Shown here one piece after another: positions 2,408 to 7,247 of a stretch of 46,094 bases of DNA. This DNA comes from Parazoarcus communis SWub3 = DSM 12120 (GTDB taxonomy: Bacteria; Pseudomonadota; Gammaproteobacteria; Burkholderiales; Rhodocyclaceae). The DNA lies in NCBI RefSeq assembly GCF_003226565.1, contig NZ_QKOE01000025.1, forward strand, positions 1 through 46,094, given 5' to 3'. How positions within the stretch are numbered: the stretch's first letter is position 1; every line of letters starts with the position of its first letter. The translations under genes were made by a program, and so were the position numbers. Below the pieces are notes generated by a model. The model saw nothing but the letters and a program-made list of their open reading frames with translations. It was not told the DNA's origin and did not search any database.

Positions 2408-2830
2408 TCAGACGAGTGGGTTGAGGATGCGGATACCCGGCAAGGTGTGCCCGTCATGCATGTCTTCGCTGAGCAAGGTATCGCATCCGGCTTCGATGGC
2501 GGCAGCAACGATAAGGCTATCCCAGTAGGCGAGGCGGTGAGCGTTGCGCAGATCGAGTGCGAGCAGGTGCCACTGCGCAGAGGGAATATGCAGCCGGCAA
2601 TCGGATTGCAACTGTTCGATGAATGGACGAAGCTCGGCATCCTGCCAACCTTGTTTTCGCCGCAGAACAAAACCGAGTTCATTGATGATCTGTGGAGTGA
2701 TCAACACTGACTCGGTGGCCTGAATGGCTTGCTGCGCACGCTCGTGCCGGCTTGGATCACCGCTTGTTGGACGTGTCAGTGCGTAGACCCAGATATTGGT
2801 ATCAACGCAGACGGTCGTCATAGAGTTCAT
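2408..2830 (-). CDS. PIN-domain ribonuclease toxin, VapC-like
   Basis: 140 residues. The PIN acidic residues appear in the expected order: VDTNIW near the N-terminus, INELG, YWDSLIVAAA and LLSEDM. Such proteins are Mg2+-dependent RNases and usually the toxin of type II toxin-antitoxin pairs; PIN toxins commonly cleave tRNA or rRNA. The start region overlaps the 3' end of the preceding small gene (2802-3038) by up to 29 bp, as usual for translationally coupled pairs. An alternative start is the ATG three codons in (MTTVCVDTN). The full set of active-site residues suggests an active enzyme. Toxic activity is inferred from family and gene arrangement. Confidence 0.85.
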   Translation of the reverse strand: MNSMTTVCVDTNIWVYALTRPTSGDPSRHERAQQAIQATESVLITPQIINELGFVLRRKQGWQDAELRPFIEQLQSDCRLHIPSAQWHLLALDLRNAHRLAYWDSLIVAAAIEAGCDTLLSEDMHDGHTLPGIRILNPLV

Positions 2831-3038
2831 CCCTTTCGAAACTGGGGTCGACGTCGGAGTTACGGGTAAAGCGCTGAAACAACTCCGACCACCGTGGCTT
2901 CGGCGTGTCGACGTCCGCGTTGTCCGATTGAGCGCCCTCCAGCGGCCAGAAGATGACCTCCACCTTGCGATGGCGAAGCTCCTCCGGGATTGGAATGTAG
3001 GCCGGGGTGTCTTCGTAGATGACGCGAGCGGGATTCAT
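2802..3038 (-). CDS. Small VapB-like antitoxin of the PIN toxin
   Basis: 78 residues, acidic and small, encoded immediately upstream of and overlapping the PIN-domain gene. The N-terminal half (AYIPIPEELRHRKVEVIFWPLE) resembles the short N-terminal segment of DUF104/DUF2281-type antitoxins, where the beta strand KVEVIFWPL follows IPIPEEL. The C-terminal half (RWSELFQRF...SFERDELYDDRLR) is charged and probably forms the toxin-wrapping tail. AGGAGCTGCC precedes the ATG. It would neutralise the PIN toxin by direct binding and possibly repress its own promoter. The role is inferred mainly from position, size and charge. Confidence 0.7.
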   Translation of the reverse strand: MNPARVIYEDTPAYIPIPEELRHRKVEVIFWPLEGAQSDNADVDTPKPRWSELFQRFTRNSDVDPSFERDELYDDRLR

Positions 3039-3049
3039 GGCAGCTCCTT

Positions 3050-3296
3050 TCAGAAGATCGCGCGTTTTGTTAGTCCCTCATACCACTTCGCGATGCCGAT
3101 CTGGTGGGCTAACAGGCGCTGCAGGTCGACGAAGTATGGGGGTTCGTGCAAAAAGCCCGGCTTTGAGTGCCCGGTCCAATTCGCGGTCCACACTGGACAG
3201 CGAGGCGGCCAGATCCCTGCGGCGGAACACTTTGCTGGCATGCTGTCGGGCGCCCTTGACCAGGCGGAAATGATCGACCGAAACAGTAGCAGGCAT
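3050..3296 (-). pseudogene. Frameshifted small gene upstream of the toxin-antitoxin pair
   Basis: Two minus-strand reading frames join into one plausible 81-residue protein if a single base is removed from the run of five G at 3138-3142. The first part reads MPATVSVDHFRLVKG...LKAGLFART. The second continues PYFVDLQRLLAHQIGIAKWY and ends EGLTKRAIF. TTAAGGATTTTTGCA precedes the ATG at 3296, giving a good ribosome-binding site, and the restored stop lies 11 bases before the antitoxin start, so all three genes form one unit. No family is recognised. The break could be a real homopolymer indel, a sequencing error, or less likely a +1 translational slip on the CCC-CC of the mRNA. Confidence 0.55.
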
Positions 3297-3525
3297 TGCA
3301 AAAATCCTTAATGACGTTTCATGCAGTATGACATGAGTGGCGGTGGATCTGCTGCAGCCGGACCCGTTGGCTAGCCGGAATGACCTTGAGCAGTCCGGAC
3401 TTGAGGCGGGTGAGCTAGGCGCCCGCGTCAGCGGCAGCCCCTGCACGCATCATTTTGATGGACACCCTCACGGTGACTACATGGAAGCGCTGCCTGCACC
3501 TGCCACACACTGCTAGCATTCGCCC

Positions 3526-4938
3526 ATGAGCCTCTATCAAGACCTCGCCGACCGCACTGCCCGGCTGATTGCCGACGGCGTGTTGCGCCCCGGCGACCGC
3601 CTGCCTTCAATCCGGCAGACCTGCAGGTCGAATGCAATCAGCCCGGTCACGGTCACCCAGGCCTACCAGTTGCTGGAACAGCGAGGCTTGATCGAAGCAC
3701 GGCCAAAGTCCGGCTATTTCGTCCGCGCACGACTGGGGAGTTCGCTGCCGGAACCGGACATGACCCATCCGGTCGGCGGATCGACTGCGCTCCAGGTCAG
3801 CGACTTCATCTTCCAGATCCTCGACAGCGTCCGTGATCCGGCCGTCGTGCCGCTGGGCTCGAGCTTTCCGAGCCCGCACCTGTTTCCACTCGACAAGCTG
3901 GGGCGCTTCCTTGCCTCTGCGGCGCGTCGGCTGGACCCGCTGGCCACGGTCACCGACCTGCCACCGGGCAACGAGGCGTTACGCCGGCAGCTTGCGCTAC
4001 GCTATCTCGCCCATGGTGCGTCAGTGTCACCGCAGGAAATCATCGTCACTTCAGGGGCTCTGGAGGGGATCAACCTCTGCCTGCAGGCGCTGACTCAACC
4101 GGGCGATCTGATCGCAGTCGAGTCCCCCACTTTCTATGCCGGCCTGCAGGCGAGCGAGCGGCTTGGACTGAGGGTCATCGAGATTCCCAGCCATCCGCGT
4201 GAAGGGGTCAATCTGGCGGCGCTGGCCGATACGCTGCGCCACCATCCGGTGAAGGCCTGCCTGTTCATGCTCAACTTTGCCAATCCGACCGGCAGCCGGG
4301 TGTCAGATGACAACAAGCGGGCCCTGATCGAGTTGCTGCACACGCATCAGGTGCCGCTGATCGAAGACGACGTCTACGCGGAACTGCACTTCGACGCCTC
4401 GGCCCCCCTTTGCAGCAAGGCTGTGGACCATGACGGGCTGGTACTGCACGTGTCCTCGTTCTCAAAATGCCTTGCTCCAGGATATCGCCTGGGCTGGGTC
4501 GCCGCCGGGCGCTACGCGCAAGCGGTACAGCGGCAAAAATATGCAACCAGCCTGGCGACCACGGTTCCCGTACAGATCGCGGTGGCTGAATACCTGAAGC
4601 ACGGCGGTTTCGACCTGCACCTTCGCCGCCTGCGCCAGCAACTGGCCACGCAGGAGAGACAACTGGTGGCCGACATCGAGGCATTGTTCCCGGCAGGCAC
4701 GCGCCTTGCCCGACCCGGGGGCGGCTACTTCGTCTGGCTGGAACTACCCGGTCACGTCGACACCCTGCGCCTGCACGAGGACGCGCTTGCGCGCCGCATC
4801 AGCATTGCGCCCGGCCCTCTCTTCTCCGCAAAGCGCGAGTTCAGCCACTACCTGCGGCTGAACTTCGGCCACCCCGCAAACGCGCAACAGCGGGATGCCC
4901 TTGCGACCCTGGGTGATTTGATCCGCAATCAATCTTGA
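3526..4938 (+). CDS. MocR-type transcriptional regulator (GntR HTH plus aminotransferase-like domain)
   Basis: 470 residues. Residues 1-70 form a GntR winged helix (YQDLADRTARLIADGVLRPGDRLPSIR, then VTVTQAYQLLEQRGLIEARPKSGYFV). The rest is a class I aminotransferase fold with NFANPTG, the PLP-ring aspartate in IEDDVYAEL (about 281-282) and the PLP lysine in SSFSKCLAPGYRLGW (about K314). MocR proteins bind PLP and regulate adjacent genes, for example vitamin B6, GABA or taurine use. Here no obvious target lies next to it: the toxin-antitoxin unit is divergent and a bacteriocin-like gene is convergent, overlapping its last 10 bases. The target is therefore unknown. Confidence 0.88.
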   Translation: MSLYQDLADRTARLIADGVLRPGDRLPSIRQTCRSNAISPVTVTQAYQLLEQRGLIEARPKSGYFVRARLGSSLPEPDMTHPVGGSTALQVSDFIFQILDSVRDPAVVPLGSSFPSPHLFPLDKLGRFLASAARRLDPLATVTDLPPGNEALRRQLALRYLAHGASVSPQEIIVTSGALEGINLCLQALTQPGDLIAVESPTFYAGLQASERLGLRVIEIPSHPREGVNLAALADTLRHHPVKACLFMLNFANPTGSRVSDDNKRALIELLHTHQVPLIEDDVYAELHFDASAPLCSKAVDHDGLVLHVSSFSKCLAPGYRLGWVAAGRYAQAVQRQKYATSLATTVPVQIAVAEYLKHGGFDLHLRRLRQQLATQERQLVADIEALFPAGTRLARPGGGYFVWLELPGHVDTLRLHEDALARRISIAPGPLFSAKREFSHYLRLNFGHPANAQQRDALATLGDLIRNQS

Positions 4939-5192
4939 TATCTGACTCCCGCCTGGTTGTTGTAGTTGGTTCCGGCGAGTGCATCGAGCCCATCGGCAAT
5001 CCAAGCTTGCACGGGAGTGTTGTCATTGAGCCACGAGCCGATGGTGTACCCCAGTCCAAACGCCGACCCCAGAACCCCCCATCCTTTGAATGACTCCACA
5101 GCAATCCTGGCATCCATCCGTGGATGTAGGTTTGTAGGTGGAGCCAAACCCCCCGAAACCACTTCCAGATCCTTGACTGCAAGCTCTCTCAT
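4929..5192 (-). CDS. Double-glycine-leader bacteriocin-like peptide
   Basis: 87 residues from the ATG at 5192 (a GTG at 5201 is also in frame). The N-terminus MRELAVKDLEVVSGG matches the leader consensus of class II bacteriocins and microcins that are cut after Gly-Gly by C39-peptidase ABC exporters. The core of ~72 residues is glycine-rich with repeated GxxxG spacing in GWGVLGSAFGLGYTIGSWL, as in membrane-inserting class II peptides, followed by a more polar tail ending NNQAGVRYQD. The stop codon overlaps the end of the convergent MocR gene. A small membrane-protein gene lies directly upstream and its stop is within about 6 bases of this start, suggesting a coupled peptide/immunity pair. No exporter or peptidase gene is in the window. 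Function inferred from leader and core only. Confidence 0.65.
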   Translation of the reverse strand: MRELAVKDLEVVSGGLAPPTNLHPRMDARIAVESFKGWGVLGSAFGLGYTIGSWLNDNTPVQAWIADGLDALAGTNYNNQAGVRYQD

Positions 5193-5197
5193 AATAT

Positions 5198-5524
5198 TCA
5201 CCCGCCCAAGATTGCAATGAAAACACCGAGAATCATGACAACAAAACCCGAATGCCCTAAAAAGTCCCCCAAATTTGGTTCATGATCCCGAAGTACGAGG
5301 GCACGCCATTCAAAACGCTGAACGACTCTCTCGGGATTGATACTTACCCCATAGATGCTCAATCCAGCACCGATACCAATCAGTCCCACGCCGGAATTTC
5401 CAGCACTGAGCAGATCGCCCCCCACCCATACTGAGACGATAGACATCGCGATCAACACGTTTCTTGCCATTGATACGCTGAAACGACATGCCGAAGTCTT
5501 TCTCCCCCCTTTTGCACGAACCAT
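5198..5524 (-). CDS. Small membrane protein, candidate immunity protein
   Basis: 108 residues from the ATG at 5524, preceded by GAGGTGAGG. After a basic N-terminus there are two hydrophobic stretches (NVLIAMSIVSVWVGG and SGVGLIGIGAGLSIYGVSI), a polar loop RVVQRFEWRALVLRDHEPN, and a C-terminal membrane segment FVVMILGVFIAILGG, so two or three membrane passes are expected. It is immediately upstream of, and probably co-transcribed with, the double-glycine peptide gene. Class II bacteriocin immunity proteins are often small membrane proteins of this kind. No homologous family is recognised. The region has lower GC than its surroundings, which hints at horizontal acquisition. The immunity role is inference from context. 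Confidence 0.55.
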   Translation of the reverse strand: MVRAKGGRKTSACRFSVSMARNVLIAMSIVSVWVGGDLLSAGNSGVGLIGIGAGLSIYGVSINPERVVQRFEWRALVLRDHEPNLGDFLGHSGFVVMILGVFIAILGG

Positions 5525-5837
5525 CTGCCTCACCTCGGGAAATTGCTATCGACCTAACCGAACATGTACAGATCATACTTAAAAGACCATGCACATAACA
5601 TCCTGCACATGTAGGGTGGAATCGATTCTCGAAGCCTCTCCACGACAGACTAATTGACCATTTACCTTTTTTTTTGCACCCGGATCTGGTAGAAAACGGA
5701 ACCCCACCCATCAACGACTTTGTCCTTCGGCAGACACCCTTCCAATCTGTACCTATCAAAAATCGCACAATCTGAATCTGCCCTCATTTTCGTCTGAATG
5801 ATGTACTGCGCGCCATTGTCAGACGTGGAGCAGGTGC
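5525..5837. other. Low-GC intergenic region between divergent genes
   Basis: About 310 bp between the candidate immunity gene (minus) and ccoG (plus). It is visibly richer in A/T than the flanking genes and contains a run of nine T at 5667-5675 and two copies of the hexamer ACATGT (in AACATGTACAG and CACATGTAGG). It must hold the promoters of both directions. I looked for an FNR-type box upstream of ccoG and did not find a convincing one. No gene or RNA is recognised. Confidence 0.5.
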
Positions 5838-7247
5838 ATGAATCAGACTGTGAGCAAGGCGCGGGAAGCCAGGCTGGCGTTCTACCGCAAGCAAGGGACG
5901 GTGCACGCGAAGTCGGTGGAGGGTCGCTTCAACACCGCACGCTGGGCCATGGTGTGGCTGACCCAGATCGTGTTCTACGGCGCATGCTGGCTGCCATGGA
6001 CGACCGAGACGGGCACGCGCCAGGCGATCCTGTTCGATATCGCCAATGAAAAACTTTATCTCTTCGACCTGGTGCTGTGGCCGCAGGATGCCTTGCTGCT
6101 GGCCTTCTGCCTGATTCTGGCGGCGACCGCGCTGTTTTTCGTGACTGCGTTGGCAGGTCGCCTGTTCTGTGGGTTTGCTTGTCCGCAAACGGTCTATACC
6201 TCGATCTTCGTCTGGATCGAACGCAGCATCGAGGGGGATCACCTCGCCCGCCAGCGCCTGGATGCCAGTCCGGCATCGATACACAAACTCTTGGTCAAGG
6301 CAGCAAAACACAGCATCTGGGTACTGCTCGCAATCTGGACCGCCATCACCTTTGTCGGCTACTTCACTCCGATCCACGACCTGCTGCCGGCCGTTGCCAA
6401 CCTGCAGACCGGGCCCTGGGAGGCTTTCTGGCTGATCCTCTACGCCACGTTCACCTATGTGCAGGCCGGCCTGGCGCGGGAGGCCGTTTGCCAGCACATG
6501 TGTCCGTACTCGCGCTTCCAGGGCGTGATGATCGACGCCGACACCACCAGCGTCAGCTACGACCCGCTTCGCGGCGAACCCCGCGGCGCACTGCGTCGCT
6601 CGGGCAAAGGCGGCACCAGCGGCGACTGTATCGATTGCGGGGTCTGTGTGCAGGTCTGCCCGACCGGCATCGACATCCGCGATGGTCTGCAATACCAGTG
6701 CATCAACTGTGGGCTGTGCATCGATGGCTGCAACCAGGTGATGGACAAGATCGACGCCCCACGCGGCCTGATCCGCTTCATGAGCGAAAACGATGTGGCC
6801 GGCAAACCGACGACGCCCGGCCGGCACCTGCTGCGCCCACGAGTGCTGATCTACGCCGGCCTGTTGCTGCTGTTTTGCGCCCTGACGGGGTGGACGCTGA
6901 GCGAACGGGTGCTGCTGCGGGTGGATGTACTGCGTGATCGAGGCAGCTTGCTGCGTGAGACTGCGGAAGGCCTGATCGAAAACACCTACACACTCAAGCT
7001 CATCAACATGGAAGAGACGCAGCGCAGTTTCCGCATCGGTGTCAGTGGCCTGCCCGGGCTGCGCATCGACGGCACCGACACCTTCACGGTAGAGCCCGGC
7101 AGCCTGCGAACGGTATCACTGACCGTGTCAGCGCCGCTGACGGATCAACTTGCCGGTGTGCAAGCGATCGAGTTCACCACTGCGGCCCTGCATGATGGCA
7201 GCCAGCCCGTCCGAGAGAAAAGCACCTTCATCCTGCCGCCCCGCTGA
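5838..7247 (+). CDS. ccoG: Cytochrome c oxidase accessory protein CcoG (FixG/RdxA family)
   Basis: 469 residues. It is an integral membrane ferredoxin-like protein needed for maturation of the cbb3-type cytochrome oxidase, where CcoG is known to reduce Cu(II) for CuB-site assembly. Membrane segments are visible around residues 38-56, 85-107, 160-178, 196-212 and 345-365. The polytopic part has the CGFACP motif (C111/C115) and the partner motif CQHMCPYSRFQGVM. Two ferredoxin motifs follow: C264-x2-C-x2-C-x3-C274-P and C288-x2-C-x2-C-x3-C298. A C-terminal periplasmic beta-domain ends the protein, which is the usual family length. The ccoNOQP genes are not in the window. The sulfite reductase gene begins 16 bases after the stop. 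Confidence 0.95.
   Translation: MNQTVSKAREARLAFYRKQGTVHAKSVEGRFNTARWAMVWLTQIVFYGACWLPWTTETGTRQAILFDIANEKLYLFDLVLWPQDALLLAFCLILAATALFFVTALAGRLFCGFACPQTVYTSIFVWIERSIEGDHLARQRLDASPASIHKLLVKAAKHSIWVLLAIWTAITFVGYFTPIHDLLPAVANLQTGPWEAFWLILYATFTYVQAGLAREAVCQHMCPYSRFQGVMIDADTTSVSYDPLRGEPRGALRRSGKGGTSGDCIDCGVCVQVCPTGIDIRDGLQYQCINCGLCIDGCNQVMDKIDAPRGLIRFMSENDVAGKPTTPGRHLLRPRVLIYAGLLLLFCALTGWTLSERVLLRVDVLRDRGSLLRETAEGLIENTYTLKLINMEETQRSFRIGVSGLPGLRIDGTDTFTVEPGSLRTVSLTVSAPLTDQLAGVQAIEFTTAALHDGSQPVREKSTFILPPR

Follow-up and report, generated by a model that had tools for sequence, protein, structure and literature searches.

The gene pair and its setting

The stretch of DNA analysed here (the window) is one whole contig of 46,094 bases from a 5.0-Mb genome that is assembled in 231 contigs and rated 100% complete. 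Between two genes of the plus strand, it carries a pair of small minus-strand genes that encode a microcin-like precursor peptide and a membrane protein that is likely to be its immunity partner. The features are as follows.

3526–4938, plus strand: flanking GntR/aminotransferase (MocR-type) regulator gene (Pfam PF00392 and PF00155)
4929–5192, minus strand: gene for the microcin-like precursor peptide, 87 aa plus stop (reading frame; plasmid relative; PHROG 28519)
4932–4976, minus strand: variable C-terminal tail of the peptide, residues 73–87, a candidate receptor/uptake module (modular role suggested by passages of PMC13174018)
4939–5837: low-GC gap from the MocR-type gene to ccoG, holding the pair (106–156 bp in three relatives)
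4977–5087, minus strand: conserved core of the peptide, residues 36–72, which contains the GxxxG motifs and a block invariant in a two-sequence alignment, WLNDNTP.Q.WI.DG.D
5148–5192, minus strand: double-glycine leader, residues 1–15, MRELAVKDLEVVSGG (the Acinetobacter relative agrees at 10 of the 15 positions)
5198–5524, minus strand: gene, stop included, for the small membrane protein of 108 aa that is likely to confer immunity (hydrophobicity; model; same position in the plasmid loci L065 and L066)
5838–7247, plus strand: flanking ccoG/FixG-like oxidoreductase gene (Pfam PF13746 and PF11614)

The peptide frame runs on the minus strand from an ATG at 5192 to a stop codon at 4931–4929; its final two codons and the stop are shared with the 3' end of the MocR-type gene, which converges on it. 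A preliminary description of this DNA had claimed an 87-residue peptide with a double-glycine leader, which is confirmed by the frame and its N-terminus, MRELAVKDLEVVSGG; its further claim of a glycine-rich core with GxxxG motifs holds for the motifs, found at residues 42–46 and 48–52, but less well for the glycine content of the peptide, which at 12.6% is moderate and not extreme. A loose pattern for such leaders, applied to 3,266 readings of 40–150 aa that begin with ATG in 389,641 bases (overlapping loci being counted more than once in both totals), picked out four distinct proteins, namely the window peptide, two Acinetobacter comparators and one chance reading. In passages of PMC13174018, class IIa microcins are marked by Cys and class IIb microcins by a Gly/Ser-rich C-terminus for siderophore attachment; the 87-aa peptide is without Cys, its tail, GTNYNNQAGVRYQD, is not Gly/Ser-rich, and it thus bears the mark of neither subclass.

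The peptide had also been proposed to be a class II bacteriocin. A double-glycine precursor of bacteriocin type is supported, but the nearest comparators are class II microcins of Gram-negative bacteria and not Gram-positive bacteriocins. When the suggested comparison with class II bacteriocin models was made, the peptide proved to share a leader-type N-terminus with the Gram-positive class IIb family of lactobin A/cerein 7B (NCBIfam TIGR03949), yet it scored 18 bits against a curated cut-off of 21.5, with the best stretch confined to the leader (residues 3–18). It is not among the matches of the NCBIfam leader model TIGR01847 and has none in Pfam or PADLOC, and a search of solved structures returned five matches, the best at E 0.5. 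PHROG 28519, a family of unknown function, matches it at E 6.8e-7, with the best stretch at residues 36–87.

The frame of the membrane protein opens with an ATG at 5524, a GTG at 5533 being a possible earlier start, and closes at 5200–5198, 5 bases from the start of the peptide gene. A Kyte-Doolittle scan of 19 residues places two segments above 1.6 (residues 23–41 and 88–106), and an AlphaFold2 model of the 108-aa protein, of low confidence, also has helices at 44–61 and 64–78; the AlphaFold2 models, with mean pLDDT of 58.7 (this protein) and 51.2, are too weak to build upon. The earlier picture of a membrane protein of two to three passes that lies ahead of the peptide and nearly overlaps it agrees with the 5-base spacing and the hydrophobic helices. 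Passages of PMC9746304 require of an immunity protein in class II microcin systems that it be adjacent, cognate, 51–216 aa long and in the inner membrane, and passages of PMC10233263 describe such proteins as small, inner-membrane, adjacent and often overlapping; the window protein, a candidate for this part, is encoded next to the peptide, has two to three hydrophobic helices and is 108 aa long. With tblastn it has no match in phages, and its best match against plasmids stands at E 3.

The pair occupies an 899-bp gap of 50.5% GC, compared with a mean of 62.4% (sd 2.5) in segments of the same size; two of 904 overlapping 899-bp segments, taken at a step of 50, are as low in GC, and both are at the gap. 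At third codon positions, the genes of the pair have 57% and 49% GC and their neighbours 76% and 80%. In three genus relatives (G001, G002 and G003) the flanking genes are separated by 106, 107 and 156 bases, and the pair is missing. A fourth (G004) was set aside, as no MocR-type frame is seen in the stretch of 1,054 bases ahead of its closest ccoG copy, so that three of the four relatives are informative for the insert. The lower-GC islet of the preliminary description is confirmed, and the synteny comparison that it had called for shows an insert that these three relatives lack. BLAST of the insert against the relatives' gap regions gave just two 10-base matches, and the peptide is present in one of five genus genomes, the source genome alone.

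Regulatory and mobility signals were sought around the pair with little result. A scan for sigma-70 promoters gave no sites against 0.8 expected, and terminator-like sites numbered one against 1.1 expected; the best Fur box upstream of the pair agrees at 10 of 19 positions, which was equalled in 190 of 200 shuffles. Nothing convincing was seen among repeats around the insert, and the best XerC/XerD-like candidate in 4700–6000 has nine mismatches, so that the insert offers no pointer to the route by which the pair arrived. Elsewhere in the window, the minus strand at 2408–3038 encodes a PIN-domain protein (PF01850, E 1.6e-12) and, overlapping it on the upstream side, a 78-aa frame that Pfam does not match, in a region that forms another GC dip (57% at 2501–3000); we take this to be a VapBC-like toxin-antitoxin arrangement.

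Relatives on Acinetobacter plasmids and searches elsewhere

The peptide had been called an orphan, but tblastn against 72,556 plasmid records (7.3 Gb, E up to 10) contradicts this. Two Acinetobacter baumannii plasmids encode the closest relative, a 91-aa protein with the annotation "bacteriocin" that matches 94% of the query at 42.7% identity (E 1e-13), and the search gave only these two Acinetobacter records and one Rhodococcus match at E 8.

NZ_CP040260.1 and NZ_CP050386.1, A. baumannii plasmids: relative WP_137987736.1 with upstream WP_137987737.1

The alignment of the two peptides keeps the leader MREL.K.L..VSGG and the core G.LG.A...G...G.WLNDNTP.Q.WI.DG.D.L. The order of the genes is also kept, a 101-aa membrane-protein gene preceding the bacteriocin gene on both plasmids with 12 bases between them, compared with 5 in the window pair. 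The relative passes TIGR01847 (16 versus 15.7 bits) and is matched by PHROG 28519 at E 4.1e-8 over residues 2–87. It differs from the window peptide in its tail, which is acidic with a Cys, and in its partner: BLASTP finds no detectable similarity between the window membrane protein and the 101-aa protein. Such dissimilarity is not unexpected, since verified microcin immunity proteins have little or no mutual sequence similarity according to passages of PMC9746304 and PMC10233263, and the immunity role of the 108-aa protein, which we hold to be likely, is predicted from its position, size and hydrophobicity. The partner protein in A. baumannii (L065 8683–8988) also has a weak PADLOC match to the RTasSLATT model (E 0.0061).

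On the two plasmids, the pair lies on a 1,519-base segment (L065 8232–9751 and L066 4232–5751) that is 99.8% identical and has different local surroundings. The plasmids are themselves related, with a common replicon type, 2,913 and 823 further shared bases in the compared stretches, and several genes. Scanned with a consensus that we take to be that of XerC/XerD sites, the 18-kb locus L065 contains five such sites with at most two mismatches versus none in 40 simulated sequences; a site of this kind falls at the left edge of the segment and another lies 35 bases inside its right edge, whereas none was seen in the window insert. No report combining pdif with a bacteriocin or microcin in Acinetobacter was found in the open-access literature among the matches listed.

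The tail of the A. baumannii relative (peptide at L065 9001–9276), GNDYCEDGGDY, recurs in a second peptide of this species. With the relative as query, six A. baumannii plasmids matched at E 4, a score that is meaningless alone; the one examined, pMC23.1, encodes a 61-aa peptide (L068 3001–3186) that starts MKELTLTELELVSGA and ends GNDYCEDGGNY. Relative and pMC23.1 peptide have the leader type and the tail GNDYCEDGG[DN]Y in common and differ in their cores, whereas the window peptide has the core of the relative and a tail of its own. Downstream of the pMC23.1 peptide lie cupin, HlyD and C39-ABC genes, a layout that passages of PMC10333792 give for the locus of the active microcin Mcc17978; the pMC23.1 peptide is likened to Mcc17978 by this layout. 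To judge from these sequences, the relative and the pMC23.1 peptide look like a case of tail sharing between different cores, which would fit the division of labour described in passages of PMC13174018 for several characterised microcins, where the C-terminal part binds the receptor and the N-terminal part kills. The Acinetobacter relative would then be a natural example of tail sharing among microcin-type peptides with different cores.

Two further groups of known systems resemble the window pair in part. The mca-type Acinetobacter loci (Mcc17978 and pMC23.1) have the GG/GA leader and the small core, and their tail is common to the A. baumannii relative; they differ in their own core and in their own cupin, HlyD and C39-ABC genes, which were not found here. 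The class II microcins of Enterobacteriaceae (MccV, L, N, PDI, H47 and others), as portrayed in passages of PMC10233263 and PMC9746304, agree in leader type, size class and an adjacent small membrane protein; in contrast, the tblastn of plasmid records as a whole, rather than microcin by microcin, detected no core similarity to the window peptide, which is without Cys, Gly/Ser-rich tail or an exporter that could be found.

Further relatives were sought in 395 genomes of the family, 300 of the order and 369 of the class, drawn evenly from larger groups, and no convincing one was found outside the source genome, weak matches being judged from their entries in the result tables. With a limit of E 0.1, the peptide matched 22 of the 395 genomes of the family, the source included, with the best other match at E 0.0046, and none besides the source reaches query residues 1–8. 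The membrane protein matched 42 of the 395, again including the source, and the best other match (E 2.4e-4) has a stop inside it and lies within a 367-aa frame. With a limit of E 0.01, the alignment of the two peptides matched 4 of the 300 genomes of the order and 3 of the 369 of the class, the source being counted in each, and the remaining matches lie within frames of at least 519 aa. PHROG 28519 gave one match in 185 class genomes (G766), in a search that missed the source's own peptide (23 of 34 candidates scored) and so is no proof of absence. The G766 match is attributed to chance, as its reading is interrupted by two stops and none of the small frames listed at that place opens with a leader; the plus strand, the one translated, carries a 438-aa frame.

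Among phages, tblastn with the window peptide or the A. baumannii peptide reached E 2 at best. Pattern scans of larger collections are limited to sequences in which the short stretches of the pattern are preserved exactly. Within that limit, the peptide gave 38 matches in species-genome contigs, none confirmed, and none was confirmed in viral contigs with the peptide, the membrane protein, the alignment or the A. baumannii peptide. The alignment gave 40 matches in species-genome contigs and one was confirmed, a Lachnospiraceae MAG protein (L067 7929–8657) that is presumably a CvpA-like membrane protein. It holds KTPVQAWIADS, near the peptide's NTPVQAWIADG, inside a 242-aa frame without a leader, and was rejected as a relative; the likeness is probably due to chance, the scan having selected for that block. 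Neither the WLNDNTP block nor anything on class II microcins in Betaproteobacteria was found in the open-access literature searched.

Search for an exporter

According to passages of PMC9746304, a class II microcin depends on an ABC transporter with a C39 peptidase, which cannot cleave without its Cys-His-Asp triad. The search of the genome assembly turned up no ABC transporter that has this catalytic triad. In the window contig, PF03412 has no match, and the two ABC matches align to query residues 493–671 and 508–701 only, which is the ATPase part; the remark in the preliminary description that no exporter lies nearby is therefore correct. The pMC23.1 exporter, used as query, located 85 ABC places in the genome. 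Of these, L087 alone has an alignment that extends to the N-terminal side of query residue 149, and where C, H and D of the triad would be expected it has P, R and F; two others (L085 and L086) have N-terminal extensions that are not alignable to the peptidase. The one PF03412 match in the whole assembly is a 236-aa single-domain protein, not of the ABC type, with a signal-like N-terminus and an intact triad. Strong PF03412 matches in 237-aa frames occur in all four genus relatives, so that this single-domain peptidase goes with the genus and not with the insert. Weak matches were also seen in the relatives' frames of 740–748 aa, two of which were checked and have no triad His and Asp.

The A. 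baumannii plasmids agree with the window in this respect, since PF03412 has no match over the full length of either, in a search that covered the plasmids only; pMC23.1, searched alongside, does match. Microcin hits that lack an exporter are not unusual: in the passages of PMC9746304 on a survey of E. coli, a C39 exporter was present in the same assembly for 81.9% of the hits, and none was found for about 18%. Moreover, with an assembly in 231 contigs, a plasmid-borne exporter could be missing. The preliminary description had named, as evidence against its reading, a genome without a C39 exporter together with homologues that do not conserve the leader; no such exporter was found in the genome, but the leader is conserved, at 10 of 15 residues.

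Interpretation, rival readings and a separate C39 peptidase

We consider it probable that the insert is a horizontally acquired two-gene cassette for a class II microcin-like precursor and its immunity protein, without an exporter in this assembly. Arguing for it are the conservation of leader and core in a protein annotated as a bacteriocin that itself passes TIGR01847, the succession of small membrane gene and peptide gene in both organisms (12 and 5 bp apart), the recurrence of the relative's tail beside cupin, HlyD and C39-ABC genes, the low-GC insert absent from three relatives, and the lack of a C39 match on both Acinetobacter plasmids as well. Weighing against it are the failure to find a catalytic C39 ABC exporter in the assembly, two upstream membrane proteins that cannot be aligned, the lack of a Pfam, PADLOC or TIGR01847 match for the window peptide, the lack of a promoter-like site and of a convincing relative in family, order or class genomes, and support that comes from one homologous family of one species only. 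As neither subclass mark is present and no exporter was found, the peptide is called microcin-like.

By analogy with characterised class II microcins, the precursor would be cut after Gly15 by a C39-peptidase ABC transporter, and its 72-residue core would leave the cell by way of an HlyD-type adaptor together with TolC. On a competing cell, the C-terminal tail might then bind a receptor in the outer membrane, and the glycine-zipper/amphipathic core could harm or obstruct a target in the inner membrane that is protected by the immunity protein. Since no competent exporter was found, the cassette would either borrow one in trans, for example from a plasmid missing in the assembly, or now serve as immunity alone. 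Under this reading, the WLNDNTP block would define a new core family in a group with few validated members, and, if its activity is true, the peptide would be a member far from the Enterobacteriaceae, the source of most characterised class II microcins.

A possibility that we take seriously without favouring it overlaps the second of these branches: the pair may be a relic, or retained for immunity only, with a peptide that has lost its export and selection, if there is any, acting on the membrane protein as a guard against the microcins of neighbours. Speaking for this are the failure to find a competent exporter in the assembly, a promoter-like site, or a copy in the four genus relatives. 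Both reading frames are intact, however, the close match of leader and core to the relative is unexpected for a long-dead gene, and an exporter on a plasmid could have escaped the fragmented assembly.

Beyond the microcin-like cassette itself lies a broader proposal, which we regard as unlikely. Exporter-less microcin/immunity cassettes might be a mobile kind of their own, of less than 2 kb, exported by helpers as they move between distant Gram-negative bacteria, apparently as XerC/XerD modules on the Acinetobacter plasmids and with a satellite-like dependence on the C39 exporter of a host or co-resident plasmid. They would exchange their tails with those of resident microcins and thereby become suited to the receptors present locally. 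Its probability was lowered slightly because the two Acinetobacter plasmids are themselves related. The window pair itself raises the question of whether microcin/immunity pairs persist and spread without an exporter.

It is improbable that the peptide is a secreted signal or cell-surface factor with the membrane protein as its receptor or modulator. Double-glycine leaders also direct peptide signals, as Dirix et al. are said to have described in 2004, and the core has two GxxxG motifs, which glycine zipper proteins reportedly carry; but the relative's tail is common to a microcin-type gene beside a cupin/HlyD/C39-ABC set, the layout of the pair is that of a microcin with its immunity gene, and the gap between the flanking genes holds no regulator-sized frame of its own. 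That the small frames arose by chance, with no gene there, is very improbable; it might be read from the missing Pfam match and the lack of convincing relatives in family genomes, and is already contradicted for the peptide by a relative of near full length (E 1e-13) with the same partner layout and by PHROG 28519, which matches both peptides.

The single-domain C39 peptidase of the source genome lies on another contig (C155), on the minus strand of locus L001 at 1342–2052. About 1 kb from it, at 3028–3333 of the same strand, a 101-aa frame holds LSQQEMKETEGAWWP, which looks like a leader-type cleavage motif, and the two may possibly form a peptidase/substrate pair unrelated to the insert.
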